Positions 1 through 64,000 of a DNA stretch of 64,000 bases are shown piece after piece. Numbering within the stretch: the stretch's first letter is position 1; every line of letters begins with the position of its first letter. Source of the DNA: Cafeteria roenbergensis. Lineage: Eukaryota; Sar; Bigyra; Bicosoecida; Cafeteriaceae. Both the position numbers and the translations under genes were made by a program. The DNA is taken from the NCBI GenBank assembly GCA_008330645.1, contig VLTN01000009.1, forward strand, positions 620,001 to 684,000, given 5' to 3'. The notes beneath the pieces were generated by a model. That model made no database searches, had not been told where the DNA came from, and was given only the letters and a program-made list of their open reading frames with translations.

Positions 1-3000
1 TCCAGCTCGCCCTCACGGACGCCAGCTCGCCCGTGGTCACCATCTCCACCAGCTCCAGCAACCGCGGCGAGATTGTGGCCGTCACGCCGGCGGCCGCTAA
101 GCTGCTCCTCGCCACCCGCGCTGCCTCGCTCATCGGGCAGAACATCTCCACCATCGTGCCGCCGCCCTTCCAGGACTTCCACCAGCACATGCTCGACGGC
201 TTCGGTCGCTCCGTCACGTCGGAGTCGTCCATCGTGGGCCACGAGCTGATGCTGCCCGTTGCCAGGCGCGACGGCACCATCATCGCGTGCAATTTGACGT
301 TTGACGAGTCGCCGCCGGACGCTGCCACCATGCAGCCGCGCCTGGCCGCGGTGCTGCACCCGGTGCCGAGCGCGCACGACCTGGTGCTCTTCGTGGGGGA
401 GGCAGACGGCTTCCGCATCGCCTCGGCCTCGCGCGGCGCCCTGACGCTCTTGGGCATCGAGCCGGAAGGGCTGAAAGAGCGGCACGTGTCCCTGACGTCC
501 TTCCTGCCGTCGTTGTCGCCGTCGTTCGTGCCGTTCATGACTCGCTCCTCCGGACGGGAGGAGCTGCGAACTCTCCGCGACGCCGCCAGCCTTGCCGAGT
601 CGGGCTCGAGCTCCACAGCCGCCACTCCCGGGCCAAGCGTGCGGCGCCCCGCCCGAGGAGCTGGCATCGGATCCGGGAGCTCGCTGATGGCGCAGGTGAA
701 GCCCGACAAGCGGGGCATCGCCAGGGTGCGAGTGGCGCCGATGCTGTCGCTCAAGGAGACGGGCCTGGTGCCGCTGGAGTTCCAGGGAGCGCCGTTCGCG
801 ACGGTTCTCGCCGGGTCGGTGCAGTGCATGCGGATGATGGGCAGCGAGGTGTTCCTGCTTCGGTTCGTGCCGACGCGGCTGGTGATCCCTGCGGGGGTGC
901 CGCTGGACGGGAGCGAGGCGGAGCTCGTGATGGAGGACTCGCCCGAGGCGGGCTCGCGACCGTCGATGGCGATGTTCGGCTCCGGCTTCAGGTCGAGTCT
1001 GGCAGGCCCCCGATCGGCCACGGATGCATTTGGAGGCATTGATCTGGGCGAAGATGAGGAAGGGGAAGAGGACGCAAGCGTTGATTCCGCAGACGTTGTC
1101 CTCAGCCAAGCCGGCATCGGCGAAGACGGGGCGGACGGCACTCCCCGCGCGAACCTGCTTCTTCCCGTGCCCCAAGCAGATGACCTGGCCCGCACAGCCA
1201 GTGGACGAGGCCAGGCTGGCGAGGGCCCGCAAGCGGCAGAGCAGGACGCCAAGCTGCTGCCCAGCCCCGACCTGCCGGCTGAGGGCGCGAACGACGCAAG
1301 CATGACGGAGCTGCTCCGGCCCGCAGCCGACTCGACGCGGCCCAAGGCGAAGTCCGAGTCGGCAGGGCCGCAAAGCTCGGAGACGGCAGCCTTGGTCAAG
1401 GGGGCCGACGAAGGCGCCGACGGAGGGTTGAGCCAGACAGTGGTGACAGCATCCGACCGCGGCGCAGCGGTCGTGCAAGTGCAAGAGAAGCCCGCCCGAC
1501 CTCTGAAGGGAGCACTCAGAACGTCTTCAGGGATGGGCGCTCTACGTGCTTCGATGATCAGTGAGCAAGGAGCCGCAATGGGTGATGTCAAGGGGTCGTC
1601 TGCCCAGATGTTTGCTGGCGGCGCTTCGTCTGCTGGAGAGTCGTCGGCCGGAGGCGCTGCCCAGGTGGGTGGACTGCTCCGAGCCGTGCTCAATCGCAAC
1701 GACGGCCGCGAAGGGGAGACGAACCGCATCCGGCTAGTGCTGCTGCTCTCGGCGACCTGCGTGCTCCTGGCATCAGCCGGGACAGCCATCTGGATCGACC
1801 GGTCGCGGGTAACGATGGAGGGGCGGTCTGAGGGCTTCAGACTGTCGACCGTGCGGATGCACGCGTTCCACGAGGCTTGGACCACGGCAGTATCCATCTT
1901 CACAAACGTGTCCCGTGCCTCGGACATCGTGCTCGCACCTGTGGATGTCCTGCACGACAGGTTCGTTGCCGCGGCCGACCGCTCGCACGATGCCGCCAAG
2001 CTGCTGCACGACGCAGGCGAAGCAGCCGGCCCGCACGGCGCTCACTTTGACCTAGAGTACCACTTCCCCATGCTAGAGCCCAGCCCAGACGGCAAGACAC
2101 CGCCCGTGGTCTCCCAGATGTCCGTTGGCGACGCGGAGACGTTCATCTACGGGATATTCGGCGTTCTCAAGGCTCTGCCCCCACACGAGTGGACGTCCAC
2201 AGCAGGGGTGCGGGCGTTCTCGACCATGGTAGTGAACGAAATCGGCTACCGGAACGCGTTGGAGAAGGGCATCGGGCAGCGGGAGTACGACTTCGCCCTG
2301 CTCCTCCCTGCCATGGCCGAGCAGATCATCTACGCTGGGACGGCCTTTCTCGTCGGTGTCATCCTCACCAGCCTTGTCGCCATCACTGTTGCCGTAACAT
2401 CGCTCTGGCGGCGGTCCATCAACACAATGCAGCTCTTCCTCACCTTCCCTGCGGAGGTGTCCGGGTCGCTCCGGCAGCTCGCATCGATCCAGCTAGAGGC
2501 CGCAGACGCAGACGGCACGGCGGGCATGGACGGCGACGAGGACGATGACGAGCCCGCGGCTCCCCGCTTCATGGCGGACGGCCCGCTGGTGACCGAAGGG
2601 GAGACCCGATCGGGACGCTTCGGGGTCGAGGACGAGTCTGAACGTCGATCGGGGGGTGTCCTCTCAGGTGGGCTTTCGCGAGCCGGAAGTCGTCGGGATT
2701 TGGGTGGAGGACGCCCACGCACTCCTGGGGATGGCAAAGACGACGAGCCAGGCGAGACCGACGAGGCGATGCGCAACCAGGTCATCAACGAGGCGGACGC
2801 AACCGCCAGATGGGAGGCTGCGCTGCAGGCCCTCAAGTCGCTGCGGCGCAGCCGTGGCCGTCGTTCAGGCTCCCCGCTGTTCCGGGACCGGCAGTTCAAC
2901 GTGTCGAACGGGTTCGTCGTCTCTTCGCTGCTGTGGCTGTTGCTGCCGGTGGTGATGATCGGTGTTTGGCTGGGCACGGTGGTTCTGGTCAGCGTGGCGT

Positions 3001-3388
3001 CGTACGACCGGTCCAACGGCCAGGCAAAGCGCATTCTCCAGGCGTCCCATGTTCGTCACCACATTGACGAGATCGAGTCGTATTCCATGCTGGCGGTTTC
3101 GAACCAAACCATCCTGCAGAATTTGCTTCGCATTCCTGGGCTGCAGCAGACGGCTGTTGACTACGATGCCACTTCCACACGGAAGCTTGCCTACGAGATG
3201 CACACCCTCGTCTACGGAGGCCTGGCCTGCTCCGCCATCAAGAGGTGCGAACTGATTGGCCCGGCTCGTGAGGGCCCCGACACAATTGCGCCAGAATCGG
3301 CCACCATGTACCTGGCGGACGGGTGTTTGGAAGTTTCGGCCGAGCAACAGGCGGAGTGCAGGACCGTTGGCGGCGGCGTTATGAACAG
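1..3388 (+). repeat. Direct paralogous repeat, copy 1 (pairs with 60550-64000)
   Basis: Base 1 aligns with 60550 and 3361 with 63973, in the same orientation about 60.6 kb apart. Similarity is mosaic. Blocks ~500-971, ~1650-2480 and ~2890-3265 are almost identical to copy 2, including silent positions. Blocks ~972-1640, ~2488-2738 and ~3266-3340 hardly align and differ in length: the first linker is 66 nt longer in copy 2 and the second 3 nt shorter. The pairing is cut off by the window end, so the true length is longer. Confidence 0.95.
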
Positions 3389-3914
3389 TGGGCTCCAGGC
3401 TGCCATTGCCCGGATCGGAAGCGTGTCACGGCAGTTCCTTGTTTCGTTCGTTGGCTCCAACCGGACCGAGGCAAACGCTCTGGAGCACTCTCTGGTTCGT
3501 CAGCTTACCGAAATGACCCATCCCCACGCTCGCGCTGGGTTCGCTCGGGCAACGGCCCACCTCATTGACAGCACGCTGGCCGTGCTCATCGACGGCCAGA
3601 ACATTGCCCTCACCGCGACGTGGGTCTTCGCTCTCGTCTACATGGGCGTCACGGCCATCTGGCTGAGCTCGCAGGTCACGCAGCTGGCGTGGCCGCTTCG
3701 CACTGCCCGCCGGCTGGTGCGGTTCCTTCCGGCAGACCTGATTCTGGCCGTGCCGAACCTGCGGCACGGACTCCGTGAAGTGGCCGCCGGAGTACGGACG
3801 AAGAAGCGGAAGCGCGAGTGGTGCAAGTGGAAGTGCTGCACGAAGCCATCGAGGCGGGTGGCCATTGCAGACGCCCCAGCTACTTCGACCGGGAGTACCA
3901 AATCGCGCTCGTGA
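1..3914 (+). CDS. TmcB-like PAS-containing multi-pass membrane protein, 3' part (partial at window start)
   Basis: The frame is already open at base 3, so only the C-terminal ~1300 residues are seen; the stop is the TGA at 3912-3914. The first ~70 residues read as a PAS domain (VTPAAAKLLLATR then SLIGQNISTIVPPPFQDFH), in the position where PAS follows the TPR-like region of tiny-macrocyst (TmcB/TmcC) proteins. Next come a hydrophilic linker (~970-1650) and at least four hydrophobic segments, near 1722-1800, 2316-2408, 2920-3005 and 3622-3664. A long extra-membrane region with several Cys lies between the last two. The tail is basic. The paralogue at 58143 onward shows the missing N-terminal half. 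The role is unknown; family members are presumed membrane sensors. No intron is needed in this part. The family call is by pattern, not search. Confidence 0.75.
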   Translation, partial: QLALTDASSPVVTISTSSSNRGEIVAVTPAAAKLLLATRAASLIGQNISTIVPPPFQDFHQHMLDGFGRSVTSESSIVGHELMLPVARRDGTIIACNLTFDESPPDAATMQPRLAAVLHPVPSAHDLVLFVGEADGFRIASASRGALTLLGIEPEGLKERHVSLTSFLPSLSPSFVPFMTRSSGREELRTLRDAASLAESGSSSTAATPGPSVRRPARGAGIGSGSSLMAQVKPDKRGIARVRVAPMLSLKETGLVPLEFQGAPFATVLAGSVQCMRMMGSEVFLLRFVPTRLVIPAGVPLDGSEAELVMEDSPEAGSRPSMAMFGSGFRSSLAGPRSATDAFGGIDLGEDEEGEEDASVDSADVVLSQAGIGEDGADGTPRANLLLPVPQADDLARTASGRGQAGEGPQAAEQDAKLLPSPDLPAEGANDASMTELLRPAADSTRPKAKSESAGPQSSETAALVKGADEGADGGLSQTVVTASDRGAAVVQVQEKPARPLKGALRTSSGMGALRASMISEQGAAMGDVKGSSAQMFAGGASSAGESSAGGAAQVGGLLRAVLNRNDGREGETNRIRLVLLLSATCVLLASAGTAIWIDRSRVTMEGRSEGFRLSTVRMHAFHEAWTTAVSIFTNVSRASDIVLAPVDVLHDRFVAAADRSHDAAKLLHDAGEAAGPHGAHFDLEYHFPMLEPSPDGKTPPVVSQMSVGDAETFIYGIFGVLKALPPHEWTSTAGVRAFSTMVVNEIGYRNALEKGIGQREYDFALLLPAMAEQIIYAGTAFLVGVILTSLVAITVAVTSLWRRSINTMQLFLTFPAEVSGSLRQLASIQLEAADADGTAGMDGDEDDDEPAAPRFMADGPLVTEGETRSGRFGVEDESERRSGGVLSGGLSRAGSRRDLGGGRPRTPGDGKDDEPGETDEAMRNQVINEADATARWEAALQALKSLRRSRGRRSGSPLFRDRQFNVSNGFVVSSLLWLLLPVVMIGVWLGTVVLVSVASYDRSNGQAKRILQASHVRHHIDEIESYSMLAVSNQTILQNLLRIPGLQQTAVDYDATSTRKLAYEMHTLVYGGLACSAIKRCELIGPAREGPDTIAPESATMYLADGCLEVSAEQQAECRTVGGGVMNSGLQAAIARIGSVSRQFLVSFVGSNRTEANALEHSLVRQLTEMTHPHARAGFARATAHLIDSTLAVLIDGQNIALTATWVFALVYMGVTAIWLSSQVTQLAWPLRTARRLVRFLPADLILAVPNLRHGLREVAAGVRTKKRKREWCKWKCCTKPSRRVAIADAPATSTGSTKSRS

Positions 3915-27593: not shown

Positions 27594-27935
27594 GTGGCAC
27601 GGCGGCGTCAGGCGTGCGTTTTAAAGGGAGGATCGGGTCGCTGGCCGGGCTTCGCGCAGCGGCGGTGCACAGTGGTCGCGACACGCGCGATTTCGAGGGC
27701 GGGGCGCTTGCGTTTGCGGCTGCAGCAGCGCTCGAATAGCTCGCCTCACGCTCCCCTGGCGCCAGCCCGTCACGGTGCGACGGGCGCGACATGACGGCGC
27801 CTCCCATTGCCCTCGCTGAGCTGGCCTGTTCGGGGCCAGCGTCGGGGCCTCAAGTGTGTGACCGCGCGCCTGGTCGCTGGCGGCTCTGCATCGCAGTTGC
27901 CCGCCACGCACTCTTGCGACCGCGTGCACGCCCTG
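27594..27935. promoter_or_regulatory. 342-bp divergent intergenic region
   Basis: This lies between the TLC gene (-) and the HEAT-like gene (+). The open frame of the HEAT-like gene extends upstream to 27807, so its start could be earlier. No clear element. Confidence 0.4.
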
Positions 27936-50800: not shown

Positions 50801-53800
50801 CGAGGGACATGCCCGCTGCCGCTGCGACGGAAGAGGCTGCCGACACTGCGAGCAGCCTGGCCTCCCCTGCCCACTCCGCCATGCTCGCGATCAGCGCACT
50901 CTCGAACACCGCAGCCGCGTTCGCGTCCTCCTCCGCGGCCAGCAGTGCCAGCGCCTCCCGGCGCGACACTCCAGGGGTGAGGCGTCGGGCGACCACGTGC
51001 AGCGCGTCCACGGCTGCGGCAAGGCTCCCCACCGATGCCGGCGCCGACGAGCCGGCGGTCGCCGGCCCTTCGTCTTGCAGCGAGCGCCTCACTGCCGACG
51101 CGGCCCAGCCCGGCGCGGCGCCCGCAGAAGACACCAGCAGCGGCGGCGGGGGCGCGAGTGCTGCCAGCGCCGCCGTGAAGTGGGTTCCTGGGAACAGCAC
51201 CGAACGGCTCTCCGGAGCCTCCGGCGGCTTGGTGTGCAGCGGCAGCCAGGCGGCGCAGTCTGCCAGTGCAACGTCCAGCGCAGCGTCGGCCGACGCGCTT
51301 GCGTCGGTTCCTCCTCTGCCTCGCCGGCCAGACGCGCCCGCCGCGCCCGCAGTGACGATGACTGCCTCAGCCAGCGCCTCCGCCTCGGCCTCGGGGCCCT
51401 CTCTGGCCGACGCCTGCTTGGCCGCGCTCAGCATCTGCCGCGCCGCCCCGGGCCGCGCATCGGCCGTCCACATGCCCAATACCGCCGCCGGAACGCCCTC
51501 CGCCGCCGCGCCGAGCGAAGACGATGTGCTTTGCTGCGTCGTCTGCACAGACTCCGCCGCGGCCAGGCGCACACCGCCCCTGAAGGAGGCGCTCCTGCCC
51601 CCCGCGCCGAGCTTGGACGAGCCGTGTGCTCCGCCGCTGAAGGGCACCCGTGCCCCCGCCATCACGGCGACGCCGTTGCCCGCCGCCGGCGCGGTGCCAG
51701 CAGAGGCGGCGGAAGCAGCAGCGGTCGTGAACGACCGGCCGCGTCCAAAGCCAGCCTCGCCGAGCGAGGACGACGCAGACGGAGATGGGGACGGCGGTGC
51801 CCCGGGCGGGCGGCTGGGCTTGCCGCCAGCTGCGCCCGCCGCGCCAGACTCCGCCTGGCCTGAGTCGCCGCGCCCAGCAGAGGCAGGCTGGGTCCGCCCG
51901 CCGGCAGGAGGCACGGCCTCGTGGCCAACCGCGCCCGCCCCTCGCTGCGCTGCCGCTGGCAGAGCCTGGCAGAGCTGTCCCATGGCCGGCTGCCCGTCGA
52001 GGGCGAGCGCCCACGCGAGCGTGGCGCCGCTGCCGCCGCCGCCTTCCAGCCCCGTCCTGCCGCCCGCGCCTGCCGGCCAGACCGCGGAGTAGGCGCCAGA
52101 GGCCAGCATGTCTGCCAGCACGGCCACGCGCTCCAGCGACGGCAGCTGCGATGGGGACACGGCGTCGGCCGCGGCCAGCGCCATGTCTCCAAGGCGCTGC
52201 GCCCAGGCGCCACTGGCGATGGTGGCGAGCTTGCGACGGCGCTGTTGCGCCGTGTACGCCGCCACGAGCGAGGACGGGGCCAGCGACCCTCCGCCCCGCA
52301 GCGTAGCCCAGGCGAGCCAGCCGATGGAGGCCCCGCCCCCGCCTGGCCCGCCCGCGCCGGCGCCCGCCCCCGAAAGGTCACCGTTGTCGTCTCCGCCCAA
52401 GCCAGGCGAGGAGGAGGAGGAGGAGGAGGAAGAGGAAGCGGTGGACGATCGCTGTGCGGCGGAGTTGATTGCGTCGTCGAGCGCCCGGACAGACACGGCT
52501 CCCGACCACGCGGCCGTCGCCTCTCGAAGGCGAGGCCCGACCGTCGAGCGGTCAGCGCCTCCCCTCCACGCTCGCGCGCCGTCCAGCACAGCCGCCGGAA
52601 CTGTGGCAACGGCTGCTGCAAGCTGCCTGGCCACGAGCTGGCCGGCCGCTTCGGCGATAGTGACGGTGTCCCGATGGCGCTTGTGTGCCCGCAGCCCACC
52701 CGGACCGCCGACCCCGCCCCACGCCGCCCCGGCCCACGCCGGGACCCCGGCGGGCACCGCCCACGCCGGAATGCTGGCCACCAGGGCGGCCGCGGGCACT
52801 GGAGCCGCCGCGTCGACGCCGCCTCGCTTCCCGGCCGTGGAGACGCCTGCCTCGTCCGGAACCTGGCCCCACACGGCGTCCGGGTCGGCGGCAACGCTAC
52901 GGTCGCCGTCGTCACCCAGGATCGCGCCTCGGTGGGCGTGGGCCACCCAGGCGCTTGGACCGCCCCAGCCCCCGGTCCCAACGCGCCCCCCGCCCCCCGG
53001 TGCGTTCGCGCTCGTCGCTCCGCCGAGCGGCACCGCGGACAGCAGGCTGCGCTGCATCGTGAGCACGCCCGCGGCCCTCACGCCCCCGCGGACGGCCCGG
53101 CGCACGCGCAGCGGCCCCAGCGCCCTCAGCGCCACCGTTCGCCAAAGCAGCCCGTTGACGCGCCGCTCCAGGCCGGCCACACGCTCCTGGGCCGCCTTGA
53201 GCCCAAGGCGCGCCTCCCGGCCGCGCAGCACGACCCGCTGCAGGTCAGCCAGCAGCGCGCCGTCGTCCTGCTCCGTCACGGCCTTGGCATCAGGGGGAGG
53301 GCGCCGCGAGCTGGCGCCCGGGCTGCGGCTGCGGCTGCGGCTGCCACTGCCGCTGCCCGGTCGCGTGTCGTAGCTCGCACCGCGCTCGCCGGCGCCGTCG
53401 TCAGGCGCCGACGACGTGCGTTCGCGCAGCTTGGTTGCGGCCTGCCGAAGGGCGCGCCCTCGCGCCGTCCTCGCGTCAGTGGCCAGCACTTGCGTGTCAA
53501 CGCGGTCCACTGCGGCGGCGGCCCGGCCTTTGGCGTCGTCGGCTCGGCCACCCCCGCCGAAGCCGCCGCGCGCTCCCATCGACCCCGGCAGCCGCGGGCC
53601 ACCCGGAGCTGCGGAGGGAAGGCGGGGCCGAAACTGTCCCGCGGCGAAGGGACCCGTGGCAAGCGCGGCTGCGTCCTCGTCGTCCGCCTGCATGCGCCGC
53701 TCCTCCGCCCTGGCCTCGGCCTCGGCCGTGTCGTCCGCCGCGACGATGGCCTGCAGCGAGCGCCGAAGCACGTCCTCGCCGCACACCACGCGCGCTGCCG

Positions 53801-56800
53801 ACAGAAGCGGCCTCGCCTCCCCCAGAAGCATCCGCCCTCGGAGCACGAACGGAAGGGCAGCCTGCTTGCCGCTGCCGGCCGGTCCGTCCCGGCGAAGCCC
53901 CGCCCCGCCAGTCCCTGCCTCGGCGCCGGACCCCGGCGCTCCCACGGCGCCCTGCAGCGCAGCCGCCGACGCGCTCGAGTCGTACACGGCGAGGGAGCGA
54001 ACTCCGCCGGCGCCCGCCTTGGACCCGGCACCGGAGGGCTCGCCGGCCCCAGCCTTGGCGCTCTTCTGCGGGCCGCCGGGGTTGACCGTCCGCTGCGCCA
54101 CGTCGGAGAGCCCGAGGTCGCCGGACCGGCGAGATCCCTCGACCGCAGGGACAATGGACGTGGTCAGCATTCGCCCCACCGCCGCCACAATCACGCCCTC
54201 GGACAGGTTGCTGCCGCCCCGGTCGCTTGCCTGCAAACCCAGCGTGCTGCCGTCCGGCTGGGAGGCCGCGAGCTCTGCGAGCCACTCCAGGTTCAGCAGG
54301 GCGTCCTCGTCCTCGAGCAGCAGGGCGCGCCACTCTGACTCCCACATGGCTTCGTTCGCGGCGGGTGCCGGTGCCTGGCCCGCGTCCGTGGGCGGCTTCT
54401 CGTCGCCGCGGGGGAGGGCCCCCGTGGTTGGGGCGGCCGCACCGGGCCCTGGCCTGGTGCCCCCGATGCGGAGATGCGAGGATGCGCCCATCCGCTCAAG
54501 GGACGCCAATTTCTCCCTCTCGGCTTGGATTCGGCGCGCCTGCTCCTCCATGACGCTCTGAACCAGCGGCGAGTCAGCGGAGCGGCGCTTGGCAAGCTGC
54601 CGTGCGCGGAAGGCTGCTTGCAGAGCCGCCTTGACGGCCCCGTCACCCACTCGAAGCCAGGCGGCCAGGCCCGCAAAGAGCGCAAGCCGCTGCGCGGGAG
54701 ACAGCTCCAGCGCCAGACGCAGCACCGTCACGGCTGGCACCCCTCCGCGAACTGCGCAGCCCAGGGTCACGACCATGTCCCGCTGCTGGGCGGGCGGCAA
54801 GGCCTCGAAGCGGGACGCAAGATGCTTCCGCGGGTTCAGCAGGGCCAGCTGTTGCTGGTTCCGGCGCCGCCGGTGGAGCAAGGCCAGCCTCGCCGCCAGC
54901 CGCAGCGAGCGTCTGTGACCCTGGCCCAGCCGGGCGCGCAGGCGACGGACTTCCTGAATCGCCCAGCGGCCGTCGCCCGCGGCGAGGTGCTCCGACGCGG
55001 CTCCAGCTGCAACCGCAGCTGCCCACGACTCGGCAAACGTCAGCCTGCCAGAGTCCCCCGCGGGCCCCACCAGGTCCTCCAGACGCCCGACCTCGCGAGC
55101 TGCTGCGCTGGTTTCGCGCCGCAGCAGTGCCTGAACGCGCGCGCGGCCACCCGGGCCGGCAATTGCTGTGGCGGCTGTTCGCCCCGCCCCAACCGGGAGC
55201 GCAGCGCCATCTGTAAACGACCCGCCCGGGGCCGCTGCAGAAGCAGACTTGGCTGCGACTCTCCCCACGTCCCCGCCGCTGGAAGGAACAGGCGCGCTGT
55301 CGCTTTCTCCGATGCTGAACGTCACCGAAGCGGCTCTGCCCTTGGATGCGGGGCGTCGAGCGGCGGAAGCCGGTTTCTCTGCGCTGCCGGGCACGCCATG
55401 TGAGCGCGTGGCACTCAGTGCCTGCCCCCCGTGCCGCAGCGCATGCTCTGCTGAGCCGGATTCCGGTCTCGGGTGCCCATGCCCGGAGCCTGGCTCGGAC
55501 AGCGCAGCGACGGCGGACGCAGCAAGCCGGTCAGCCGCCAAGTTGCCCTCCGACTGTTTCGTCCAGGGAAGACCCGCCTGCTGTCCGGGGCTTCCCCCCC
55601 CCCTCGCTGGAAGTCCCAGGCCCCTCGGCACGAGGATGCAACGCGCCAATACCGACAGCAGCCGCATGGCAAGTACGGCCGCGGCCGCCTCAGCTGCGGC
55701 CTGGGCACCGCGGTCCGTTTTTGGAGCTGCAGACGCGCTCGTCGGGGCCTGGTCTGCAGGCCGGGAGTCTGTCCCCCCGCCCATGCCCTGCGAAGGAGGC
55801 TCGCGCTCGTCGGCTGGCTCATGTTGCCCCGCCGTCACGTCCCCGTCTTCCGCCGAGCGCTGGTCGCCCAACGCCCCACCACAGCCAGCGCTGCCTGCCG
55901 TAAAGGCAGCTTCCTGAGACGCAGCCGGTGACAAGGATGGCAGCGGCTGCTGCTTCGTTTGCTCGAGCGCAGAGCGGGCCCCGGTCGACGCTGCCCCTCC
56001 CCCGGCGAGCAGAATGAACATGCCATGCAGCGCGGCAGCCGCGACGAGCCGGTTGGGCACGAACACTGCCTTCTCCCCCGCGACACCATCCCCGCCGCCG
56101 CTGCTGCTGCTGCCACGGGCGGAGCAGGCCTCCTCCCACTTGGAAATGGCTTTCAAAATCGTCCCTGCCACGAGCACCGGTGAGGAGGATGAGGCTCGCC
56201 CTACATCTGCCAGCAGCTCGCGCGCAGCTTGCGCAGGCGGTGCGCCCCTAGCAGTGCTCAGGGCGCGCCGTAAGGCCGTTGCCGGCCCATCCGCCGGCGC
56301 ACGACGACTGCCTCGCGCGGCCGACGCTGCCCGCCGGCCCTCGAACCCGAGGCCCCACTCAAGAGTCGCGGCTGCCTGCTCCCAAGCAGCCGCCGCCCGT
56401 TTCAGGGGGCGCGGCAGCCCTGGCGTGTCTGTGCGCCCGGAGGCTGCCAGGGCGTCCGTTCGGCCAGTGGAGTGGCCCGACCCGATGGGCAAGCGCACGT
56501 CACTGCTTCGGCCGCCCCACAGCGGATCGGGCTGCCCAGTGCCCTCCACTGCTCGCCTCGGCACTGTGCTTCCGGGGCTCCTTGCTGCGAGCTGGGTCGC
56601 TGCGGCGGCCGCAGACGGCCTGAGGATCGTTCCGGACGCAGCACCCCAACGCGCGGCTCTGGTGTCGGACCGTGGCTGCGAGCGGGGAGGCAGTGCGGTG
56701 GGTGCCAGGTCGTTAAGTCTCCAATCGGCGTCACCTTCGCGACGAATGCTTGCCTGCGGGCGAGCAGGCTTGCGTGAGGCGCCGCTCAAACTCTGGGACT

Positions 56801-57137
56801 GCCCGGAAACGGGCAGGCCTGTTCCCGTGCTATCCTCGCTCTCCGGGACTGCTGGACCAACCATGGCAACCTTGGGCGGGCTTGGTGCGGCGGGAACCAG
56901 CAAGCGGCGCCGGCGGGCAGCTTCTGACTGAGGTGCACCTGCACGTCTCGACTCGCGGCTTGCCATCAGCCGGTCAAGCTCCTTCTCCGCGGAGCGCCCC
57001 GCCCACTGCCCACTTGCACCGAAAGCCGCCATGGCCACGGCTTTCCTCGTCCTCTCTGCGTGGCTCATGGTCGCGTTCCGTTGCTGCTCGCCCGAGCGCC
57101 GCAGCGTTTCAAGCTCTCCGGCGCTTAGAGGCTCCAT
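41802..57137 (-). CDS. Giant low-complexity protein of ~5,100 residues
   Basis: A single frame without stops spans 15.3 kb. The ATG at 57135-57137 (MEPLSAGELETLRRSGEQQ) gives 5111 residues; the open frame extends a little upstream without an ATG. Composition is dominated by Ala, Gly, Ser, Arg and Pro, with poly-Gly and poly-Ser tracts. More ordered, helical islands occur: one near 54600-55000 (RLRARLGQGHRRSLRLAARLA, then ALLNPRKHLASRFEALPP and MVVTLGCAVRGG), one with charged helices near 45850 (ALDALEDEADPLKRLIERSK) and one near 42900-43100 (SLCGIVACLVDVDTD). No catalytic motif, signal peptide or membrane helix was recognised and no family can be named. In-frame introns are possible and would shorten it. 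A structural or scaffold role is only a guess. Confidence 0.65.
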   Translation of the reverse strand: MEPLSAGELETLRRSGEQQRNATMSHAERTRKAVAMAAFGASGQWAGRSAEKELDRLMASRESRRAGAPQSEAARRRRLLVPAAPSPPKVAMVGPAVPESEDSTGTGLPVSGQSQSLSGASRKPARPQASIRREGDADWRLNDLAPTALPPRSQPRSDTRAARWGAASGTILRPSAAAAATQLAARSPGSTVPRRAVEGTGQPDPLWGGRSSDVRLPIGSGHSTGRTDALAASGRTDTPGLPRPLKRAAAAWEQAAATLEWGLGFEGRRAASAARGSRRAPADGPATALRRALSTARGAPPAQAARELLADVGRASSSSPVLVAGTILKAISKWEEACSARGSSSSGGGDGVAGEKAVFVPNRLVAAAALHGMFILLAGGGAASTGARSALEQTKQQPLPSLSPAASQEAAFTAGSAGCGGALGDQRSAEDGDVTAGQHEPADEREPPSQGMGGGTDSRPADQAPTSASAAPKTDRGAQAAAEAAAAVLAMRLLSVLARCILVPRGLGLPARGGGSPGQQAGLPWTKQSEGNLAADRLAASAVAALSEPGSGHGHPRPESGSAEHALRHGGQALSATRSHGVPGSAEKPASAARRPASKGRAASVTFSIGESDSAPVPSSGGDVGRVAAKSASAAAPGGSFTDGAALPVGAGRTAATAIAGPGGRARVQALLRRETSAAAREVGRLEDLVGPAGDSGRLTFAESWAAAVAAGAASEHLAAGDGRWAIQEVRRLRARLGQGHRRSLRLAARLALLHRRRRNQQQLALLNPRKHLASRFEALPPAQQRDMVVTLGCAVRGGVPAVTVLRLALELSPAQRLALFAGLAAWLRVGDGAVKAALQAAFRARQLAKRRSADSPLVQSVMEEQARRIQAEREKLASLERMGASSHLRIGGTRPGPGAAAPTTGALPRGDEKPPTDAGQAPAPAANEAMWESEWRALLLEDEDALLNLEWLAELAASQPDGSTLGLQASDRGGSNLSEGVIVAAVGRMLTTSIVPAVEGSRRSGDLGLSDVAQRTVNPGGPQKSAKAGAGEPSGAGSKAGAGGVRSLAVYDSSASAAALQGAVGAPGSGAEAGTGGAGLRRDGPAGSGKQAALPFVLRGRMLLGEARPLLSAARVVCGEDVLRRSLQAIVAADDTAEAEARAEERRMQADDEDAAALATGPFAAGQFRPRLPSAAPGGPRLPGSMGARGGFGGGGRADDAKGRAAAAVDRVDTQVLATDARTARGRALRQAATKLRERTSSAPDDGAGERGASYDTRPGSGSGSRSRSRSPGASSRRPPPDAKAVTEQDDGALLADLQRVVLRGREARLGLKAAQERVAGLERRVNGLLWRTVALRALGPLRVRRAVRGGVRAAGVLTMQRSLLSAVPLGGATSANAPGGGGRVGTGGWGGPSAWVAHAHRGAILGDDGDRSVAADPDAVWGQVPDEAGVSTAGKRGGVDAAAPVPAAALVASIPAWAVPAGVPAWAGAAWGGVGGPGGLRAHKRHRDTVTIAEAAGQLVARQLAAAVATVPAAVLDGARAWRGGADRSTVGPRLREATAAWSGAVSVRALDDAINSAAQRSSTASSSSSSSSSSPGLGGDDNGDLSGAGAGAGGPGGGGASIGWLAWATLRGGGSLAPSSLVAAYTAQQRRRKLATIASGAWAQRLGDMALAAADAVSPSQLPSLERVAVLADMLASGAYSAVWPAGAGGRTGLEGGGGSGATLAWALALDGQPAMGQLCQALPAAAQRGAGAVGHEAVPPAGGRTQPASAGRGDSGQAESGAAGAAGGKPSRPPGAPPSPSPSASSSLGEAGFGRGRSFTTAAASAASAGTAPAAGNGVAVMAGARVPFSGGAHGSSKLGAGGRSASFRGGVRLAAAESVQTTQQSTSSSLGAAAEGVPAAVLGMWTADARPGAARQMLSAAKQASAREGPEAEAEALAEAVIVTAGAAGASGRRGRGGTDASASADAALDVALADCAAWLPLHTKPPEAPESRSVLFPGTHFTAALAALAPPPPLLVSSAGAAPGWAASAVRRSLQDEGPATAGSSAPASVGSLAAAVDALHVVARRLTPGVSRREALALLAAEEDANAAAVFESALIASMAEWAGEARLLAVSAASSVAAAAGMSLAGDKRKGGGGRTGASAAAGTDGGGGSSPRRGAAGNDGPGRPSPPPRLPGRTARRRRRRSSAASVETVRSQGFDQQTGPGGAPTAGGVTSHERTGEWRDSGDSCHSRRAALAAHGAVLSDADDVRVAKAALAAATSATGAADLARGRGAAEVIEVAAAKVAGRAAARGEPSVGSKAASADFSVEMLAAREEAAAEAAAEAEAGEGALAAFACADPAAPPAGRTLLMRGMAAAGVAAPLGQTAAGVTAGAASAPGLAPGGASRAEADAAARAPDMPPPSAAGGGGAAGGGFAWDAELLGLLGVGASDAAAVGPAAVQRLIVARLREASGVSPRVSRPDVFAAASVVPVHGVAATRKWVARDAIDSGPAAAIAAAESALKSRLFQRAPRTASGRLAAASGDSASVASIARPSDATKSGSGAGRRRGASRKAGEAGGKGSSRSVSPDGASEVDATEAGSWTTIGAGAGKATLPGPSGWPAPQSSEAATLDRLTGARERARASWTRLPRCPPQNQLWTAVASALAPAFGPAAPWAPPVPVGRRPDPFWGLVLMERGVTFGQLLDPAVADVATSGVSRGGMHPDDNSGPLRRARSHLQRRLRVHPGGAAAYARDRQMGQSDAGPAHLAMGAVAPHAVVAEPAAVRRAWARERAAALALWSLPTARVVPVPGLLVTLLLARARASAQRDGAVAQSAMRFLGDDELADAEADADDDGHDDEAAEAGSAGRPGRTDGRGEARGPSDAHSRAMSGLRSPRWAQGSQSASAASLGSGAAQPQAPAAIAGTVVVGSPADTAASVHGTMLVPAAGVARGRAAAQPIAADVPTRRRMRAAAANSALAAECAVAADAVLTGDAELGQALQPPVLLLWLRRRAAVAAGTARLARTAALATAIAAGADAASGLGAARLAGAAGGMLAGAGAGGGAGFDTSLPASAAHAIAAGEAAHLAAAALSSPYGLGAGAWAALVAAGSGGGGGGGGGFAGAGLAGACAEPMAFTAPGAQALLGRGAEDAEGAGGAAAAAAAAAGPSSVWASGLLLERRLALAASEEAAAAVQVLSIAAGASLIGEARPGGVDADAWLAPGEAGDIGHGAEPWWPWHRRARAAMRDEASRRGQARNTWAGVGVFDHASSRASHGGSRAAVAHMQAALGGSAGSWAAIGGLMAQGWGAGGSASAWGPGGVHATAAAAARLGDAAVARGAVVAAAVAARLPPADGVTDEALAASMGAEAGERGSRVIAMRTAALAAARGAQAASADLARSAAEQSAAGSPVARGAPDQPATMASPLSAVSGGGDGGGRASGKGGRSHAAGGRRRSGHARSSSRSSHAAAAPGRRQDASPAVQPAAGSSWSSAASSAGAASAARSDATAVPAAALAAVAQAEPSSPACSLRLSSAGLAAASAPPAAASVQTLSRLLRHPSASPLAGLFVHAAVGTGSGAAMAMASGGGGAAGAGVRGTIGLPGHASASAGPGLPGWTGLAAAPAASASANIADVAAVAAAVLGGRAIARGLSSAETWRAAGVGQLREAASWWTCLRASASVPRTLKVTAAELSGIPRLLNAAGPGASPELAATVRRLLRREAALQSRREAARSGGGAWSATAGLGAEAGGGQGSASGAAGEADAAEEAEEDALDALEDEADPLKRLIERSKIRRGFTEQAAARRSARAAAQAALASSAAAVGLASPDDEGSPRAAARRRFASAAPPQPQGGANGGGQGPAAASPGGANAAERAAVASSSAAGDASAEVVGTEEGGRIFVLAPAHRIDAASVLGPPPTDLDEAAEDGEPDEVASGSARDPVDSAAVGITQVRRRGATTDAASLSGSASRAAGSRSGADSASDASSLDGDSTDSGATSVPRAAGAGIGAGGDWTAGDEARAQAQLAATVQWPPRPGLDAASASGAAPAAPPSVGGRASQSRPAAARAAPSRSDLSSASSFRRNRAAASPGRASQKSGSRPASRATDADGRRAPGRSGSRLTSQSSFSGAAGGGAAGRRPATGGSHAAGPHGVAGALGPSSSSSGGGGGGGGGGGGGGGGGGAGSGGGAGVGTGSPRGGGGTGGSGGQWWPRCDDGVPGLQALHEEASSFLAWLLRRGGVRPEWDIRVAAAVAVPESCDTRSASVFAAETSAVLRAGTDAMARLRAINKAAGRAPSAGGEGGEASPRASSPRRRAAAGLEAAVAAAASLRAKAQRTADPAAWPLAPGLTGASSGDALAEPLLAAASSALQQVLRRHLEAARAVQHVDGDAVPSYDAGPGADRSPGPSSPLLGELPRNRAVEGAGLRLRLRGAHGGRVTLLAWLWRLYLVETWSEAASVDDVIGTGELRQRLLAARAAVAAKEEAARSAAAAANPGGRAHGGGPGKAAPEQEGPSAVALAAAAGSAGTGAASAGASWPPEGLRLEAAERAAASEELRRTTGQARRRAVTVSAGALVLEQLQAALTTATRQLVLAADRRAALFERAVVRHAAVSPRARVLGVVGCLTELWDADAGGHAGAALAEKRAEFGPAGLDASAAEGVALVRRAAALGRATEGEESALGARGSLERAVALSGLPVSDLLGPAARLAGGGPAAAPERKALRFGLHYQSRRREARVVSAFELDAAALSTAQAEAATGGLCLRRLPPLASQAALLDSLCGIVACLVDVDTDATEGPAAAAHVLSASRAAASLPTDLGTGVRARGLTQTAPGAAPGERASAGSASGLSPRSPRSPQAGASARAEPAAASEASRQRARESGLGLLRLQTGVTAVTTWRLLRVAVRCVGPGANVAGWRSLLLQSASPSDPAGVLATVAGASLPRNMRQPGEVGSLPPRAAAADTGAEEPPERRARRRSSLLGQRSGTDGAGQPARAASASRVLFRKAVRRASVVQTLGLHEGSRRLGGGSGPGAAAPRAASASRADPQLGGGAAPAAAVRGPRMHFSKLRDAAAARAKAVAAAAASAEDEPVVRTPEAAAMTERADDVRGVMDRLQTAAAALGGVMDVDTALELLLSARMACAAASAPAFSDMP
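44700..44780 (-). repeat. Triplet repeat coding for poly-Ser and poly-Gly in the giant protein
   Basis: On the plus strand this is CCGCCT/CCGCCG repeats followed by five GCT-type triplets. On the coding strand it encodes about five Ser and then ~19 Gly. It is probably length-variable. Confidence 0.88.
52405..52446 (-). repeat. GAG/CTC triplet repeat coding for poly-Ser
   Basis: GAG triplets on the plus strand read as a run of about ten Ser (with Thr-Ala before) in the giant protein. Confidence 0.85.
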
Positions 57138-58142
57138 CCCGCCGCCGAGGCGAGAGATCCGCCGTCCGAGCAGACGCAGCCCCGCACAGGCTTGCCTTGC
57201 CACGTGCTTCGGGGCGGCGGCATCTCAAGGCGCAGCTGCAAGAATTGCGTGCAGAGCTCCGGCTGCAACGGCGAGGCCTGCCACACCAGCACAACGAGGC
57301 CTGGCTCCTCTCGCTCAGTGAGGCCATCAGGCATTGTTTTGTTGTCTCCTCGCGGCCCAAGCATCCGCGGATTTCGACGCCATTGCACTCGTGTTGCGTG
57401 TAGGGGCAGAGGGAGGATGGGGTCAGCGTCCCGCGGGCCCGTTGCTGCGCAGGACCAGCTGACCTGCGTCGGACGGTCTCGCACCGGCAGCAGCGCCTTT
57501 CAATCTGCTCCCCGGTCATCCACGAGTCTGTTCGCGTGCCACGAAGCGGGCCCGAACGGCCAACGTGTTTTGGCTCGAGCGTTCGGTCGGCCTCCGCACG
57601 GTTGCTGGTGACTGCTGCCGAGCTCAGGGTGGCAGGGGGTCGTGCCCGCCACGTTTTGGACAGCGCGAAGGATTCTGACCACGCGGCAGCGTCTTGCGGA
57701 AGCATCTTGCATGTGCAAGCGGGTTGGCCGCGTCGAGGGGCAGTTTGCTCTCCTGAACGCCCAAGCATTGATGGCCGCGCCCGAGCGTTTCGAAGGCAGA
57801 CCCCCACGGAGCGCGGCCTTCCCCTGATTCCAGTGACACGCCGAAACGCTAGAGAGCCTTCGGGCCAGACACAGGCCGCCAATTCCAAGCCCCGAAAAGG
57901 CCTCAGACCAGCAGCACCAGACCCCTCGCCTGCTGTTTGGCGCTGGCTTGCGCAGAACGGCGACTTCGTCCCAATTCCGCATGGCCTGCATGACCCGCGC
58001 CGGCGATGCAGCTGGCAGAGTCGTTCGCAGCATCGGAAAACCTCGCGATTGACCGCGGCCACGGCACACGCTCCGGGCAAGCGCGTGCCCCACTCAGTCG
58101 CGAAGAACGAGAGGTCCAGGTTTCCCTTCGCGAACAAGGAGC
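57138..58142. promoter_or_regulatory. 1005-bp divergent intergenic region
   Basis: This lies between the giant gene (-) and the second TmcB-like gene (+) and is the longest gene-poor stretch here. Open frames exist on both strands (for example a minus-strand frame starting at 58137), but they are rich in Cys, Trp and Arg, lack motifs and resemble chance frames. A 5' exon of the giant gene is possible but cannot be shown. Confidence 0.5.
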
Positions 58143-61100
58143 ATGGCAGCTGCCATGGAGGAGCAGTCGCCGCTGCTGGAGCGCATCGGTAACGTGCTCC
58201 TCAACGGGCTGTTCGGCCTCGGCCTCATCGCGCGCGACCAGAAAAGCAAGGCTTCCGGCCTTCGGCAAGGCTCCACGTCCTTTGGCGGACTGGGCTTCAT
58301 CCTTGCCACAGTCATCGAGGCGGGGCAGATGCTGGCATTCCCATTTTCAGCTGTGCAGACGGTGTGGCAAGGCACGATCATCCGGTCGGCCGCGTTGCCC
58401 GTGCTCACAGTTGTCATGCCTGCGTCCTTGGACCTGTGGTTTGGTCCCGCTGCTTACCAAGTGAGTCTGCCGGCGGGCACCGCCCAGCTGCCCCCAAGGC
58501 TCGGTCAAGGAGAACACGCGGCAGAACGACTGACTGCGAGGTTTGCAGGATTGGTTCGAGACACAGTCGAGGCAGCTGACTCTCAAGCCGGTGCGTCTTG
58601 CGGTGCCGCCTCGCCCCGCAGGTGATGTTCTTCCTCGGGATCGCGTGGGTTCTCATCTTCATCAGCCTCTCCGTCTCCATCGCGGTGGCGTTCATCAGGG
58701 AGAAGAAGCAGTCCGAGTTCGCCCTCAGGCTCTTCCGCGGCGTTGCCGTCCTCTCAACCACGGTGCTTTTCCTGCCCGTGTCGTCCCTGCTCTTCCGCTC
58801 GTACTCGTGCAGCGCCGGGTCCGACATCAGCGGGTCGACCGATGACTGGCTCGGCGCGGGAATCCCCTGCGACAACGTGTGGCGCATGGTTGTTCTTGGC
58901 GTGGTGGCGGTTATGCTGCTGCTCTTCTTCATCCTTGCCATGTTCGTGGCCGCCACCTTTGTCAACAGGCACCCGGGCAGCCTCCGATGGGCCGCCAAGA
59001 GCCACGGTCGCGTGGCCATCGCCCTGCTTGTCGCCAAGGTGCTCCTCACGGCCATTTTCAACGTCAGCCCGGCAGCGGCGCGCAGCCTGGGCACGTGCAT
59101 TGCACTGATCGTCGTTGCGCTGGGGTGGCTTGTGGCGCTGTACCGCGAGCTGCCAATGCTCCGGCCCGTGGCCAACGCGCTGCGCGCGGGGAGCGCGACG
59201 GCGTTCTTGTGGGCGAGCGTGGCGCTGCTCGTCTCAAATTTGATGCCGGGCCACGACGTTTCGGTCATGACATTGCTGGGCATCCCCGTCGCGGCGCTCG
59301 CTGGGGGCATGCTGGTCCTCACGGAGGCGCGCCGGGTCGTGAGCGGCAAGCTGTCCGACTGCGTCAGCGTGTCGCACATCGTGCTGTGGGCCAGCGCACG
59401 GGTGCAGGAGGCGGAGCAGATCCAGCACAAGGCCGAGGGCACTCCCGTCGCCATCGCCATCGACCGGCTCGCGTCGGCCTTCAGCCTCAAGTACATCGAG
59501 CAGACGGAAAACTACACTGACGACTCCCTCGAAGCGGACGAGGCTCGCGTGCTCGGCAGCGCTCGCCATCGAGGCGGGCCCGGGCCGTGGCAAGCCGCAG
59601 CGGCGTCGGTGGGGGGTGCCCCGCCGCTGGGCGCGCGCTCTGACTCGGAGGGCCCGCCTCGTCCTCCTGGCCCGCGACCGCTGGCGCGCACTGAGAGCGA
59701 GAGCTCGATGGTCCCTCACGGCGAGGTGGCCGCGAGCTCGAAGCCCCCTGCGCCGCGACATGGGATGCGCAGGCGGTCCGTGGTGGTCAAGGGCAAGCAC
59801 GGGTTGCACGTTGTCGACCAAGCAGCTGGTGTGTCAGGAGCCGGGGGACATGGACCGGTCAGCGGCCTGGATGCCGGCATGCCCATCGACAGCGACGCCG
59901 AGGCCACCGCCCGCCGCAGGCTGAGCCTCCTCGCCGCCGCAGAGGAGGCCTACCGCACTGCCATGAAGAGCGAGGCCTCCGGACTCGCCCTCGTCGCCGC
60001 GGCCAAGTTCTACGAGGCCTTCTCCCCTCACAAACAGCAGGAGGTCGACTGCATCGGCAAGCTCAAGGCCATGCAGCCCGCGCCCGACCTGGCCTTCGTC
60101 GTCTTCGTCCGCGGCATCGAGCTCAGCGATTCGTCTGCTGGTGATGGGAGGCTCGCCGCCATCGACCGCGTGATGTTCGAGCAGATGGCCGACGAGACGC
60201 GGCGCGCTGCGTGCCACCGCGCTGCGCTCCATGGTGGAGCTGTGGGCGCACCTGGAGCAGAAGCGGCCCGACCTCTGGCAGGTGCTGCAGACGGGCGCGC
60301 GCCTGGACGCGGACATCGTGCGGTGCGACTTCCTCTTCAGCCGCATGCTCCGCCTCAACCCCGAGTCCACGACGATCCTCCGCGCGTACAGCGGCTTCCT
60401 GTCCGGCCTGGGCTTCGACCCCGTGCGCGGCATGGAGCTCCGCAACCGCGCCGACCGCATCGACGAGGTGGCCTCCAGAAGCCGCGTGGGCAAGGTCGCG
60501 AGCGTGAGCCTCTTCTCGTACGGCGCCTCCCTCAAGGGCAACCGCCAGCTCCAGCTCGCCCTCACGGACGCCAGCTCGCCCGTGGTCACCATCTCCACCA
60601 GCTCCAGCAACCGCGGCGAGATCGTGGCCGTCACGCCGGCGGCCGCCAAGCTGCTCCTCGCCACCCGTGCAGATTCGCTCATAGGGCAGAACATCTCCAC
60701 CATCGTGCCGCCGCCCTTCCAGGACTTCCACCAGCACATGCTCGACGGCTTCGGTCGCTCCGTCACGTCGGAGTCGTCCATCGTGGGCCACGAAGTCATG
60801 CTGCCCGTTGCCAGGCGCGACGGCACCATCATCGCGTGCAATCTGACGTTTGACGAGTCGCCGCCGGACGCTGCCACCATGCAGCCGCGCCTGGCCGCGG
60901 TGCTGCACCCGGTGCCGAGCGCGCACGACCTGGTGCTCTTCGTGGGGGAGGCAGACGGCTTCCGCATCGCCTCGGCCTCGCGCGGCGCCCTGACGCTCTT
61001 GGGCATCGACGCAGAAGTGCTCAAGGACAGGCACACTCCCTTGACGTCCTTCCTGCCGTCGTTGTCGCCGTCGTTCGTGCCGTTCATGACTCGCTCCTCC

Positions 61101-64000
61101 GGACGGGAGGAGCTGCGAACTCTCCGCGACGCCGCCAGCCTTGCCGAGTCGGGCTCGAGCTCCACAGCCGCCACTCCCGGGCCAAGCGTGCGGCGCCCCG
61201 CCCGAGGAGCTGGCATCGGATCCGGGAGCTCGCTGATGGCGCAGGTGAAGCCCGACAAGCGGGGCATCGCCAGGGTGCGAGTGGCGCCGATGCTATCGCT
61301 CAAGGAGACGGGCCTGGTGCCGCTGGAGTTCCAGGGGGCGCCGTTCGCGACGGTTCTCGCCGGGTCGGTGCAGTGCATGCGGATGATGGGCAGCGAGGTG
61401 TTCCTGCTTCGGTTCGTGCCGACGCGGCTGGTGATCCCTGCGGGGGTGCCGCTGGACGGGAGCGAGGCGGAGCTCGTGATGGAGGACTCGCCCGAGGCGG
61501 GCTCGCGACCGTCGATGGCAATCTTCGGGGGCGTTGCAGGCCCAGAAAGCCGCAAGCCCTCTGCTGTGGCGTTCGGCGCCACGAGGACCCAAGTCAAGGA
61601 GTCGGACAACGACGATGACGATGATGGCGAGAGCGTCAGTTCTGCAGGAGTTGTGCTTAGCCAAGCCGACTCAGCTGGCCACGAGAAGCGCAGCACACCC
61701 AGGGCAGACGTTCTCCTTCCCTCTTCTCAAGCTGGGAATCTCGAGCGAGGACAGGAGAGCTCAGAGAGTGCCACTTTAATCCGCTCCGCGACTGGAGATA
61801 ATCCTGGTCACTCCGAGAGTGTGGCCGAAGACGCGAAACTGCTGCATCGGTCAGACTCAGCTGATGCCGAAGCAACATGCGTCAGCATGACTGATCTGCT
61901 CAACCCCAAAGCCAGCGGCGTGCGCGATCGGCGCCCGTCGCCGTCTGACACGGACTCTTCACGGCCCGAGCAGCGTCGCACGCTCGACCCGGAGAATTTG
62001 ACAGTCAGCGCCGGAGCCAGCAAGTCTGGACTGTCGCTCAAGGTTCTGGAACCGAGAACGCTACCTGCTGCCAAGGAGAGGGCATCTCGCCCGCTCAAGG
62101 GTGCACTGAAGCAACCCGGGTCGGCTGTTGGCATGGGTGGGGCACGCATGTCAGTGGGCGCCAGCGACTTCGCGTCGTCAAGCCTGGGCGAGGGCAAAAT
62201 CGTGTCGGGACCTTCCGGGACGATGTTTGGGGACGGGGCGTCGTCAACGGGCGACTCGACTGTCGGGGGCGCTGCCCAGGTGGGCGGGCTGCTCCGAGCC
62301 GTGCTCAATCGCAACGAAGGCCGCGAAGGGGAGACGAACAGCATCCGGCTGGTGCTGCTGCTCTCGGCGACCTGCGTGCTCCTGGCATCAGCCGGGACAG
62401 CCATCTGGATCGACCGGTCGCGGGTAACGATGGAGGGGCGGTCTGAGGGCTTCAGACTGTCGACCGTGCGGATGCACGCGTTCCACGAGGCTTGGACCAC
62501 GGCAGTATCCATCTTCACAAACGTGTCCCGTGCCTCGGACATCGTGCTCGCACCTGTGGATGTCCTGCACGACAGGTTCGTTGCCGCGGCCGACCGCTCG
62601 CACGATGCCGCCAAGCTGCTGCACGACGCAGGCGAAGCAGCCGGCCCGCACGGCGCTCACTTTGACCTAGAGTACCACTTCCCCATGCTAGAGCCCAGCC
62701 CAGACGGCAAGACACCGCCCGTGGTCTCCCAGATGTCCGTTGGCGACGCGGAGACGTTCATCTACGGGATATTCGGCGTTCTCAAGGCTCTGCCCCCACA
62801 CGAGTGGACGTCCACAGCAGGGGTGCGGGCGTTCTCGACCATGGTAGTGAACGAAATTGGCTACCGGAACGCGTTGGAGAAGGGCATCGGGCAGCGGGAG
62901 TACGACTTCGCCCTGCTCCTCCCTGCCATGGCCGAGCAGATCATCTACGCTGGGACGGCCTTTCTCGTCGGCGTCATCCTCACCAGCCTTGTCGCCATCA
63001 CTGTTGCCGTAACATCGCTCTGGCGGCGGTCCATCAACACAATGCAGCTCTTCCTCACCTTCCCTGCGGAGGTGTCCGGGTCGCTCCGGCAGCTCGCCTC
63101 CATCGAGCTCGAGGCCGCAGACGCTGACGAGTCGAGCGAATTTGGCGACGACGACGATGACGACGACGAAGGAGGAGCCCCCCGCTTCAGTGCAAATGGC
63201 GGCGACCAAGTCGTCGGGTTTGCGCAGGATGACGACGACGACGCGAGCTCCGAGGCGAGGTCTCGATTGCTCACGGACGGACCGGGTCGGACCAGCACAA
63301 AAGGCAGCATGGCCACTCCTCGCGCTCAGTCTGCCGCAGACGGCAAAGTGGACGAGCCAGGCGAGACCGACGAGGCGATGCGCAACCAGGTCATCAACGA
63401 GGCAGACGCAACCGCCAGGTGGGAGGCATCACTTCAAGCGCTCAGGGCCCTGAGGCGCAATCGCCGAAGGCGTGGGGGACCATCCCCGCTGTTCCGGGAT
63501 CGGGAGTTCAAGGTGTCGAACGGGTTCGTCGTCTCTTCGCTGCTGTGGCTGTTGCTGCCGGTGGTGATGATCGGCATCTGGCTGGGCACGGTGGTGCTGG
63601 TCAGCGTGGCGTCGTACGACCGGTCCAACGGCCAGGCAAAGCGCATTCTCCAGGCGTCCCATGTTCGTCACCACATTGACGAGATCGAGTCGTATTCCAT
63701 GCTGGCGGTTTCGAACCAAACCATCCTGCAGAATTTGCTTCGCATTCCTGGGCTGCAGCAGACGGCTGTTGACTACGATGCCACTTCCACGTGGAAGCTT
63801 GCCTACGAGATGCACACCCTCATCTTCGGAGGCCTGGCCTGCTCCGCCATCAAGAGGTGCGAACTGATTGGCCCGGCTCGTGAGGGCGCAACCGCCGTTG
63901 CGCCTTTCTCCGCAGCCATGTACCTGGCTGACGGATGCCTTGGCGCGCCGCCTGAGCAAGAGGCGGAGTGCAGGACCGTTGGCGGCGGCGTTATGAACAG
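58143..64000 (+). CDS. TmcB-like PAS-containing multi-pass membrane protein, second paralogue (partial at window end, frame broken once)
   Basis: Exon 1 is 58143-58460; after a 161-bp GTGAGT...CGCAG intron, exon 2 starts at 58622 with VMFFLGIAWVLIFISL. The N-terminal half has about eight hydrophobic segments, then a Ser/Pro-rich loop and a TPR-like helical region (AEEAYRTAMKSEASGLALVA, then FVVFVRGIELSDSSAGDG and IDRVMFEQMADETRRA), the TmcB/TmcC layout. The matching continuation (LWAHLEQKRPDLWQVLQTG, then ILRAYSGFLSGLG) lies in a different frame, so there is a frame break between ~60196 and 60231. From there the frame stays open to the window end through the PAS domain and further membrane segments, parallel to the gene at 1-3914. 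The break could be an assembly error or a real mutation. Function as for the first paralogue: unknown, presumed sensory. Confidence 0.75.
60196..60231 (+). other. Reading-frame break in second TmcB-like gene
   Basis: Upstream, frame 2 encodes conserved FEQMADETRRA. Downstream, frame 3 encodes conserved ALRSMVELWAHLEQKR. The two meet here without room for a GT-AG intron that would keep both conserved parts. The change corresponds to one extra base or two missing bases and does not lie in a homopolymer. Confidence 0.75.
60550..64000 (+). repeat. Direct paralogous repeat, copy 2 (pairs with 1-3388)
   Basis: This is the second copy of the mosaic repeat. Near-identical blocks are ~61049-61520, ~62267-63095 and ~63500-63880. 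Diverged blocks are ~61521-62260, ~63103-63350 and ~63888-63950. In 62408-63060 I noticed only two base differences from copy 1. Confidence 0.95.

Follow-up and report, generated by a model that had tools for sequence, protein, structure and literature searches.

Gene A, a membrane-sensor gene of Cafeteria roenbergensis, is a mosaic of its paralogues, because it matches gene B in the ectodomains and gene C in the linkers while B and C are evenly diverged from each other. Genes A and B lie at the two ends of the DNA analysed here, hereafter the window, which is a stretch of 64,000 nucleotides (C9:620001-684000, C9 being a contig of the 36.3 Mb, 167-contig genome); gene C is the neighbour of gene A on its upstream side. 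Judging from the sequences, the pattern is very probably best explained by interlocus gene conversion in short tracts among membrane-sensor paralogues. Gene conversion as a process is already known; the remarkable feature here is that the apparent swaps of two ectodomains follow the domain layout closely. If correct, conversion in a probably free-living protist both keeps a large receptor family constant in its core and relocates its outer and inner modules, and, should the same be true across strains, receptor diversification by module exchange versus point mutation alone becomes testable. Whole-gene trees and rate tests on the TmcB-like family would mislead, since the parts of one gene differ in history. 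Among the matches listed, our literature search returned no report of gene conversion in the TmcB-like family; by title and abstract start, none of the listed matches on TmcB was about this family and none of the papers on conversion in Cafeteria was on point.

TmcB-like genes in the window

By their domain content, genes A and B are members of a TmcB-like family (Table 1). The Pfam domain TPR_TmcB (PF25474) lies above its curated cut-off in all five of the five proteins given, with the B fragment scoring 48.6 bits; the window part of A begins downstream of that domain and has no match to it. A genome search placed TPR_TmcB at 38 sites, 37 of them over the cut-off (one of these only together with its neighbours), with four of the 38 coming from two genes on contig C59, and the domain was found in none of 14 control genomes. 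Six of the seven closest copies (A, B, C, E, F and G) are on C9 and the seventh, D, is on C34. By inspection, and with exon limits that are predicted, each of the seven has a first exon, one intron at a shared position and a long exon of 1894-1996 codons.

Table 1. Genes A and B and their parts (window positions).
Feature	Position	Strand	Basis or remark
Gene A, 3' part	1..3914	+	open frame, codon alignment; Pfam TPR_TmcB in full long exon
Gene A, start	upstream of window, C9 about 617.6 kb	+	locus L030; 1956 codons in the whole long exon
A: end of TPR/PAS core, homogenised with B and C	1..979	+	97.2% to 60550-61528
A: linker 2 (probably cytosolic), common to C, diverged from B	1074..1505	+	A=C 205 informative sites, 0 contrary
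A: ectodomain 1 and flanks, common to B, diverged from C	1686..2288	+	A=B 173 sites, 4 contrary
A: linker 3 plus neighbouring helix, common to C, diverged from B	2481..2984	+	A=C 132 sites, 10 contrary
A: ectodomain 2 with the final helix, common to B; diverged from C in ectodomain	3015..3809	+	A=B 212 sites, 15 contrary
Gene B	58143..64000, continues beyond window	+	locus L032; introns predicted from sequence
Gene B exons	first exon 58143-58460; intron about 58461-58621; long exon from 58622	+	read off sequence
B: frame break, one base more than A, C, D, E, G	60195..60205	+	six-copy alignment; real lesion or residual assembly error
B: end of TPR/PAS core, counterpart of 1-979	60550..61528	+	blastn block
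B: linker 2, no second DNA match in genome	61521..62260	+	35% protein identity to A linker 2
B: ectodomain 1, counterpart of 1686-2288	62301..62903	+	placed from blastn block; A ectodomain 1 matches B at 99%
B: linker 3 (limits of preliminary description), diverged from A and C	63103..63350	+	A-B 151/414 nt, B-C 143/411 nt
B: first part of ectodomain 2, common to A	63630..64000	+	blastn and informative sites; start approximate

Along the long exon of A, hydropathy and Pfam place six hydrophobic segments first, then a disordered stretch and the TPR/PAS core; linker 2 follows, and after it each ectodomain sits between two helices, with linker 3 separating ectodomain 1 and its helices from ectodomain 2 and its own. 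We infer that the ectodomains face outwards and that the linkers lie in the cytosol. Four cysteines of ectodomain 2 are invariant in nine of nine copies. The PAS label of the core comes from Pfam matches that all fall under the cut-off, and a sequence search of solved structures gave only weak matches to the FixL PAS domain (E 0.013-0.11). With Pfam matches admitted up to E=1, the five proteins yielded no MCP or histidine kinase signalling domain and no C-terminal class III cyclase domain, the C5 and C51 proteins among them not being known to be complete.

Alternating blocks and partner switching in gene A

The preliminary description of this DNA had noted that A and B alternate abruptly between near-identical and divergent stretches, and this is what we see. 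blastn aligns the two genes in three blocks: the end of the core (97.2%), 1607-2514 with 62222-63129 (97.1%) and 2730-3388 with 63339-64000 (90.2%); between the blocks, where the linkers named in that description lie, there is no DNA match. Silent sites behave as claimed: measured as uncorrected pS in windows of 40 codons, synonymous divergence within the blocks is mostly 0-0.2, with a maximum of 0.32 reached in ectodomain 2, whereas the linkers mostly give 0.4-0.84; it is uneven and jumps from near 0 to near saturation. The term 'unrelated', by contrast, has to be given up for the linkers, as linker 2 of A and that of B align as protein with 35% identity over 215 columns (E=6e-17) and are diverged homologues. 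At the nucleotide level linker 2 differs at 206 of 405 aligned positions between A and B and at 3 of 426 between A and C, and linker 3 at 38 of 420 between A and C (see Table 1 for B). In ectodomain 1, A and B differ at a single position out of 537. The first half of ectodomain 2 has 4 differences in 258 nucleotides and the second half 36 in 267, the latter being the short diverged piece of the extra-membrane domain that had been remarked on. Over the core the differences number 30/1536 (A-B), 27/1539 (A-C) and 21/1536 (B-C).

Agreement at silent sites would also be expected if purifying selection acted on the conserved blocks at the nucleotide level. Indeed, no part is more conserved than the core in any comparison made, and D itself comes to a pS of 0.20 from A in one stretch. 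However, the same positions vary freely in other pairs: for ectodomain 1, pS is 0.01 between A and B, as against 0.59 (A-C) and 0.60 (B-C), which refutes nucleotide-level purifying selection for the ectodomains. Between A and 15 more distant copies core pS is 0.36-0.70, so that silent sites of the core do change. We regard selection of this kind as the least probable of the alternatives weighed here; the recent gene conversion proposed in the preliminary description is upheld by silent sites that agree where other pairs are saturated. The low pS of D is confined, with values of 0.51-0.63 beside it, and hints at a possible exchange between contigs, to which the permutation test described below lends no support.

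When C is brought into the comparison, the partner of A changes along the gene. With the limits of ectodomains and linkers fixed after the runs had been inspected, 346 informative sites in the two ectodomains join A to B and 8 join A to C, whereas in linkers 2 and 3 the counts are 11 and 324, and in the rest of the gene 83 and 124; the observed contrast was reached in 1 of 895 circular shifts of the site labels. The longest runs comprise 204 A=C sites (linker 2), 148 A=B sites (ectodomain 1) and 47 B=C sites (first disordered stretch), while in 2000 shuffles they did not exceed 16, 18 and 7, respectively. The first disordered stretch is thus a third combination, in which B equals C and A is different, and the version in A has no DNA match in the genome outside A. 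(This search and those for linker 2 were genome-wide, with very common words skipped.) Within the same limits, chosen after inspection, synonymous codons tell a similar story: A and B differ at 53 of 128 in the linkers versus 13 of 323 in the ectodomains (p 1e-21), A and C at 14 of 262 versus 107 of 204 (p 2e-32), and B and C evenly, at 58 of 131 versus 110 of 210 (p 0.15).

The switch points of A lie inside or adjoining conserved membrane helices. The simplest history would be one in which neighbours A and C have a common backbone and the ectodomains of B were brought into A, which would leave A with a C-like backbone and both B ectodomains. Because A-B divergence differs between the ectodomains (0.2% in ectodomain 1; 1.6% and 13.5% in the halves of ectodomain 2), we infer at least two conversion events into A, which would be of different age, with transfer probably directed from B to A.

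A quite different reading would be that A and B arose by recent duplication, owe their identity to descent and afterwards had their linkers replaced by cassettes from a donor store. Such a view gains from a tandem array on contig C24, where copy 1 is 98-99.5% like copies 2 and 3, non-coding DNA included, except in two coding islands, and from the partner that linker 2 of A has in C. Its premise fares badly: the first exons of A and B are 86.4% identical, as against 97.5% for A-C (84.5% for B-C), and introns and flanks are unlike too, differences that rule out A and B as simple recent duplicates. Furthermore, the linkers of A and B are homologous, the ectodomains of A switch partner as well, and the even divergence of B and C weakens the idea of replacement. 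The donor linkers that had been envisaged were found only in part, since linker 2 of A recurs in C (91%) and nowhere else, and linker 2 of B matches B alone, so that these searches revealed no independent reservoir of linker cassettes. Cassette replacement is, in our judgement, very improbable. The accompanying picture of a constant core with swapped linkers describes the A-B pair but not the family, given that A and C have common linkers and differing ectodomains; as read from the alignments, exchange among the paralogues moves ectodomains as well as linkers.

Formal tests bear on the same question. A Sawyer-type permutation test was run on the seven copies (21 pairs), with columns dropped if any copy had a gap, which removed most of the linker sequence. 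On 2787 polymorphic columns, 15 of the 21 pairs are at the floor of p 0.0005 and the six pairs with D are not, in line with the recombination suspected in the preliminary description; when restricted to 538 silent columns, 14 of the 21 retain a global p<0.02, the pairs with D are again without significance, and the A-B pair loses global support (p 0.43; pairwise p 0.006). AU tests on eight segments favour A+B for the ectodomains and reject A+C and B+C (p 0.017, 0.017; 0.002, 0.009). For linker 2 they favour A+C, the alternatives (0.066, 0.067) not being rejected, and for the core A+B, with the alternatives (0.078, 0.088) again not rejected; the first helix block favours A+C, with only B+C rejected (0.042). 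No grouping is singled out for linker 3, the last helix or the first disordered stretch.

Recurrence in other copies and competing explanations

Similar mosaics are seen in other members of the family. In E, F and G the core (~1.6 kb) is 98.1-99.3% identical, while the downstream sequence is 71-80% identical in short pieces or unaligned; by these comparisons A, B and C have a homogenised TPR/PAS core, as do, separately, E, F and G. In the latter trio the longest run of E=F sites is 39, versus at most 13 in shuffles, with the other two kinds of run within the shuffle range. An array of three copies on C51 has a pS of mostly 0-0.2 in the core, mostly 0.4-0.8 in the linkers and 0.2-0.55 in the C-terminal part. 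The C24 array (C24:109501-130500, L045-L047) is a tandem triple, 98-99.5% identical in coding and non-coding DNA, in which the islands separating copy 1 from copies 2 and 3 measure about 370 and 440-520 bases; their position and composition suggest that they are linkers. Only one of the three C24 copies has a full-length open frame (2092 codons).

Could A be a chimeric consensus of B and C created by assembly or polishing? The Cafeteria strain BVI assembly, from which this DNA probably comes, was polished with mapped short reads according to the accessible part of its report (PMC6972860), and the frame breaks of B and F in near-identical blocks, as well as the single full-length C24 copy, are what residual errors in repeats would be expected to leave. 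Mapping errors, however, would not be likely to raise identity from about 70% to 99% across 500 bases, mosaics with other break places occur in E-F-G, C51 and C24, and A holds sequence that is unique in the genome, namely its first disordered stretch and its intron. Assembly error is therefore an unlikely cause of the mosaic, and we rank the chimera just above nucleotide-level selection in probability. As for the frame breaks themselves, those in B (window about 60200) and F (L036) are each of one base and may be real or residual assembly errors.

Another possibility is that cDNA of one gene, made by reverse transcription of its message, recombined with another gene, homogenising the coding parts alone. 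This would fit the finding that for A, B and C neither the introns nor the 400 bp flanking the coding part on each side score above the best of 200 shuffles, against 84.5-97.5% identity in the first exons. Yet by inspection the intron is retained at one place in seven of seven copies, an 18-bp match between E and F reaches into the intron end, and C24 is homogenised in non-coding DNA as well; moreover, in yeast duplicates homogenisation limited to coding DNA was described with no cDNA invoked in the part of the report available (PMC3924837). A cDNA route is accordingly most improbable in our view, somewhat less so than an assembly chimera but more so than cassette replacement. Regarding the introns, those of L030, L031 and L032 occupy the same place with no detectable common sequence, though the adjoining A-C exons are 97.5-98.8% identical; searched as candidate repeats, the introns of A and C have one genome copy each.

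Under interlocus gene conversion, the mechanism we prefer, tracts of some hundreds of bases would be exchanged among paralogues. Since conversion requires homology, the conserved membrane helices and the TPR/PAS core would keep being reset, whereas fast-changing linkers, introns and flanks would lose homology and then drift; an occasional tract anchored in conserved helices would transfer a whole variable module. The raised GC of the converted parts would be a by-product of conversion bias. GC at fourfold sites does go up as silent sites become more alike (for A, B and C, Spearman 0.66 in 46 windows; for E, F and G, 0.92 in 32), and in fugu protocadherins an elevated GC3 of the converted parts served as an argument for conversion (PMC1852091, in part). 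GC3 is, however, also higher in the core than elsewhere in the single-copy D (0.82 vs 0.72, 0.68) and C5 (0.95 vs 0.88, 0.91), so that the signal may partly be codon selection, while C32 has no core rise (0.80 vs 0.75, 0.85). We thus take the rise of GC with silent identity as supportive only.

Conversion may diversify sensing. A stronger version, which we consider rather unlikely, is a combinatorial sensor generator in which the helices would serve as exchange points and the two ectodomains would move as a co-adapted pair, independently of the cytosolic linkers and with no dedicated recombinase. If this were true, new pairings of input and signalling would arise in a free-living flagellate, and the ectodomain pair would be a two-module sensor like NasR or PilJ.

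Ectodomain folds, known systems and other window features

The predicted folds of the ectodomains may resemble the four-helix ligand domains of bacterial chemoreceptors (PcaY_PP, Tar, PilJ) and NasR, going by VIA-align comparisons of Foldseek candidates, helical bundles being generically high-scoring; Foldseek with the C-terminal model gave no match at E<=0.001. In sequence, ectodomains 1 and 2 are not similar (hhalign probability 0.2). Unlike MCP-type chemoreceptors, the five proteins have no match to a bacterial signalling domain.

Several known systems invite comparison. As in mammalian TLR1/TLR6, where, in the part of the report available to us (PMC2077338), repeated conversion preserves the likeness of tandem receptor paralogues in one part and the remainder diverges, the TmcB-like copies combine homogenised and diverged parts; they differ from TLR1/TLR6, which have one such region of 300 residues, in their several alternating parts and three-way mosaic, and the proteins are unrelated. 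Paralogues in fugu protocadherin clusters are likewise about 99% identical in one sharply bounded part, silent sites included, with raised GC3 there, but they have a single boundary per gene, and the accessible text (PMC1852091) does not describe separate exchange of ectodomains and inner linkers. Similar in part order are the transmembrane adenylyl cyclases of Trichomonas, with 6-8 helices, a conserved cytosolic domain and helices around two extracellular domains, among which one daughter gene with two parents was described (PMC2914791, as far as its available part goes); the likeness is one of part order, and the five proteins here (long exons or parts of them) have no cyclase domain match.

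The window contains a second near-identical gene pair, a direct repeat of 9748-11174 and 16618-18044 with 99.4% identity over 1427 bp, in which a reverse-strand frame (9817-11148) matches FkbM-type methyltransferases. On the minus strand, 41802-57203 holds an open frame of 5133 codons, mostly 72-80% GC, which may be a by-product of high GC. Two further open frames have domain matches: 27807-35228 (2473 codons) to HEAT repeats, and 22794-26258 to prolyl oligopeptidase / DPP IV-type peptidases.
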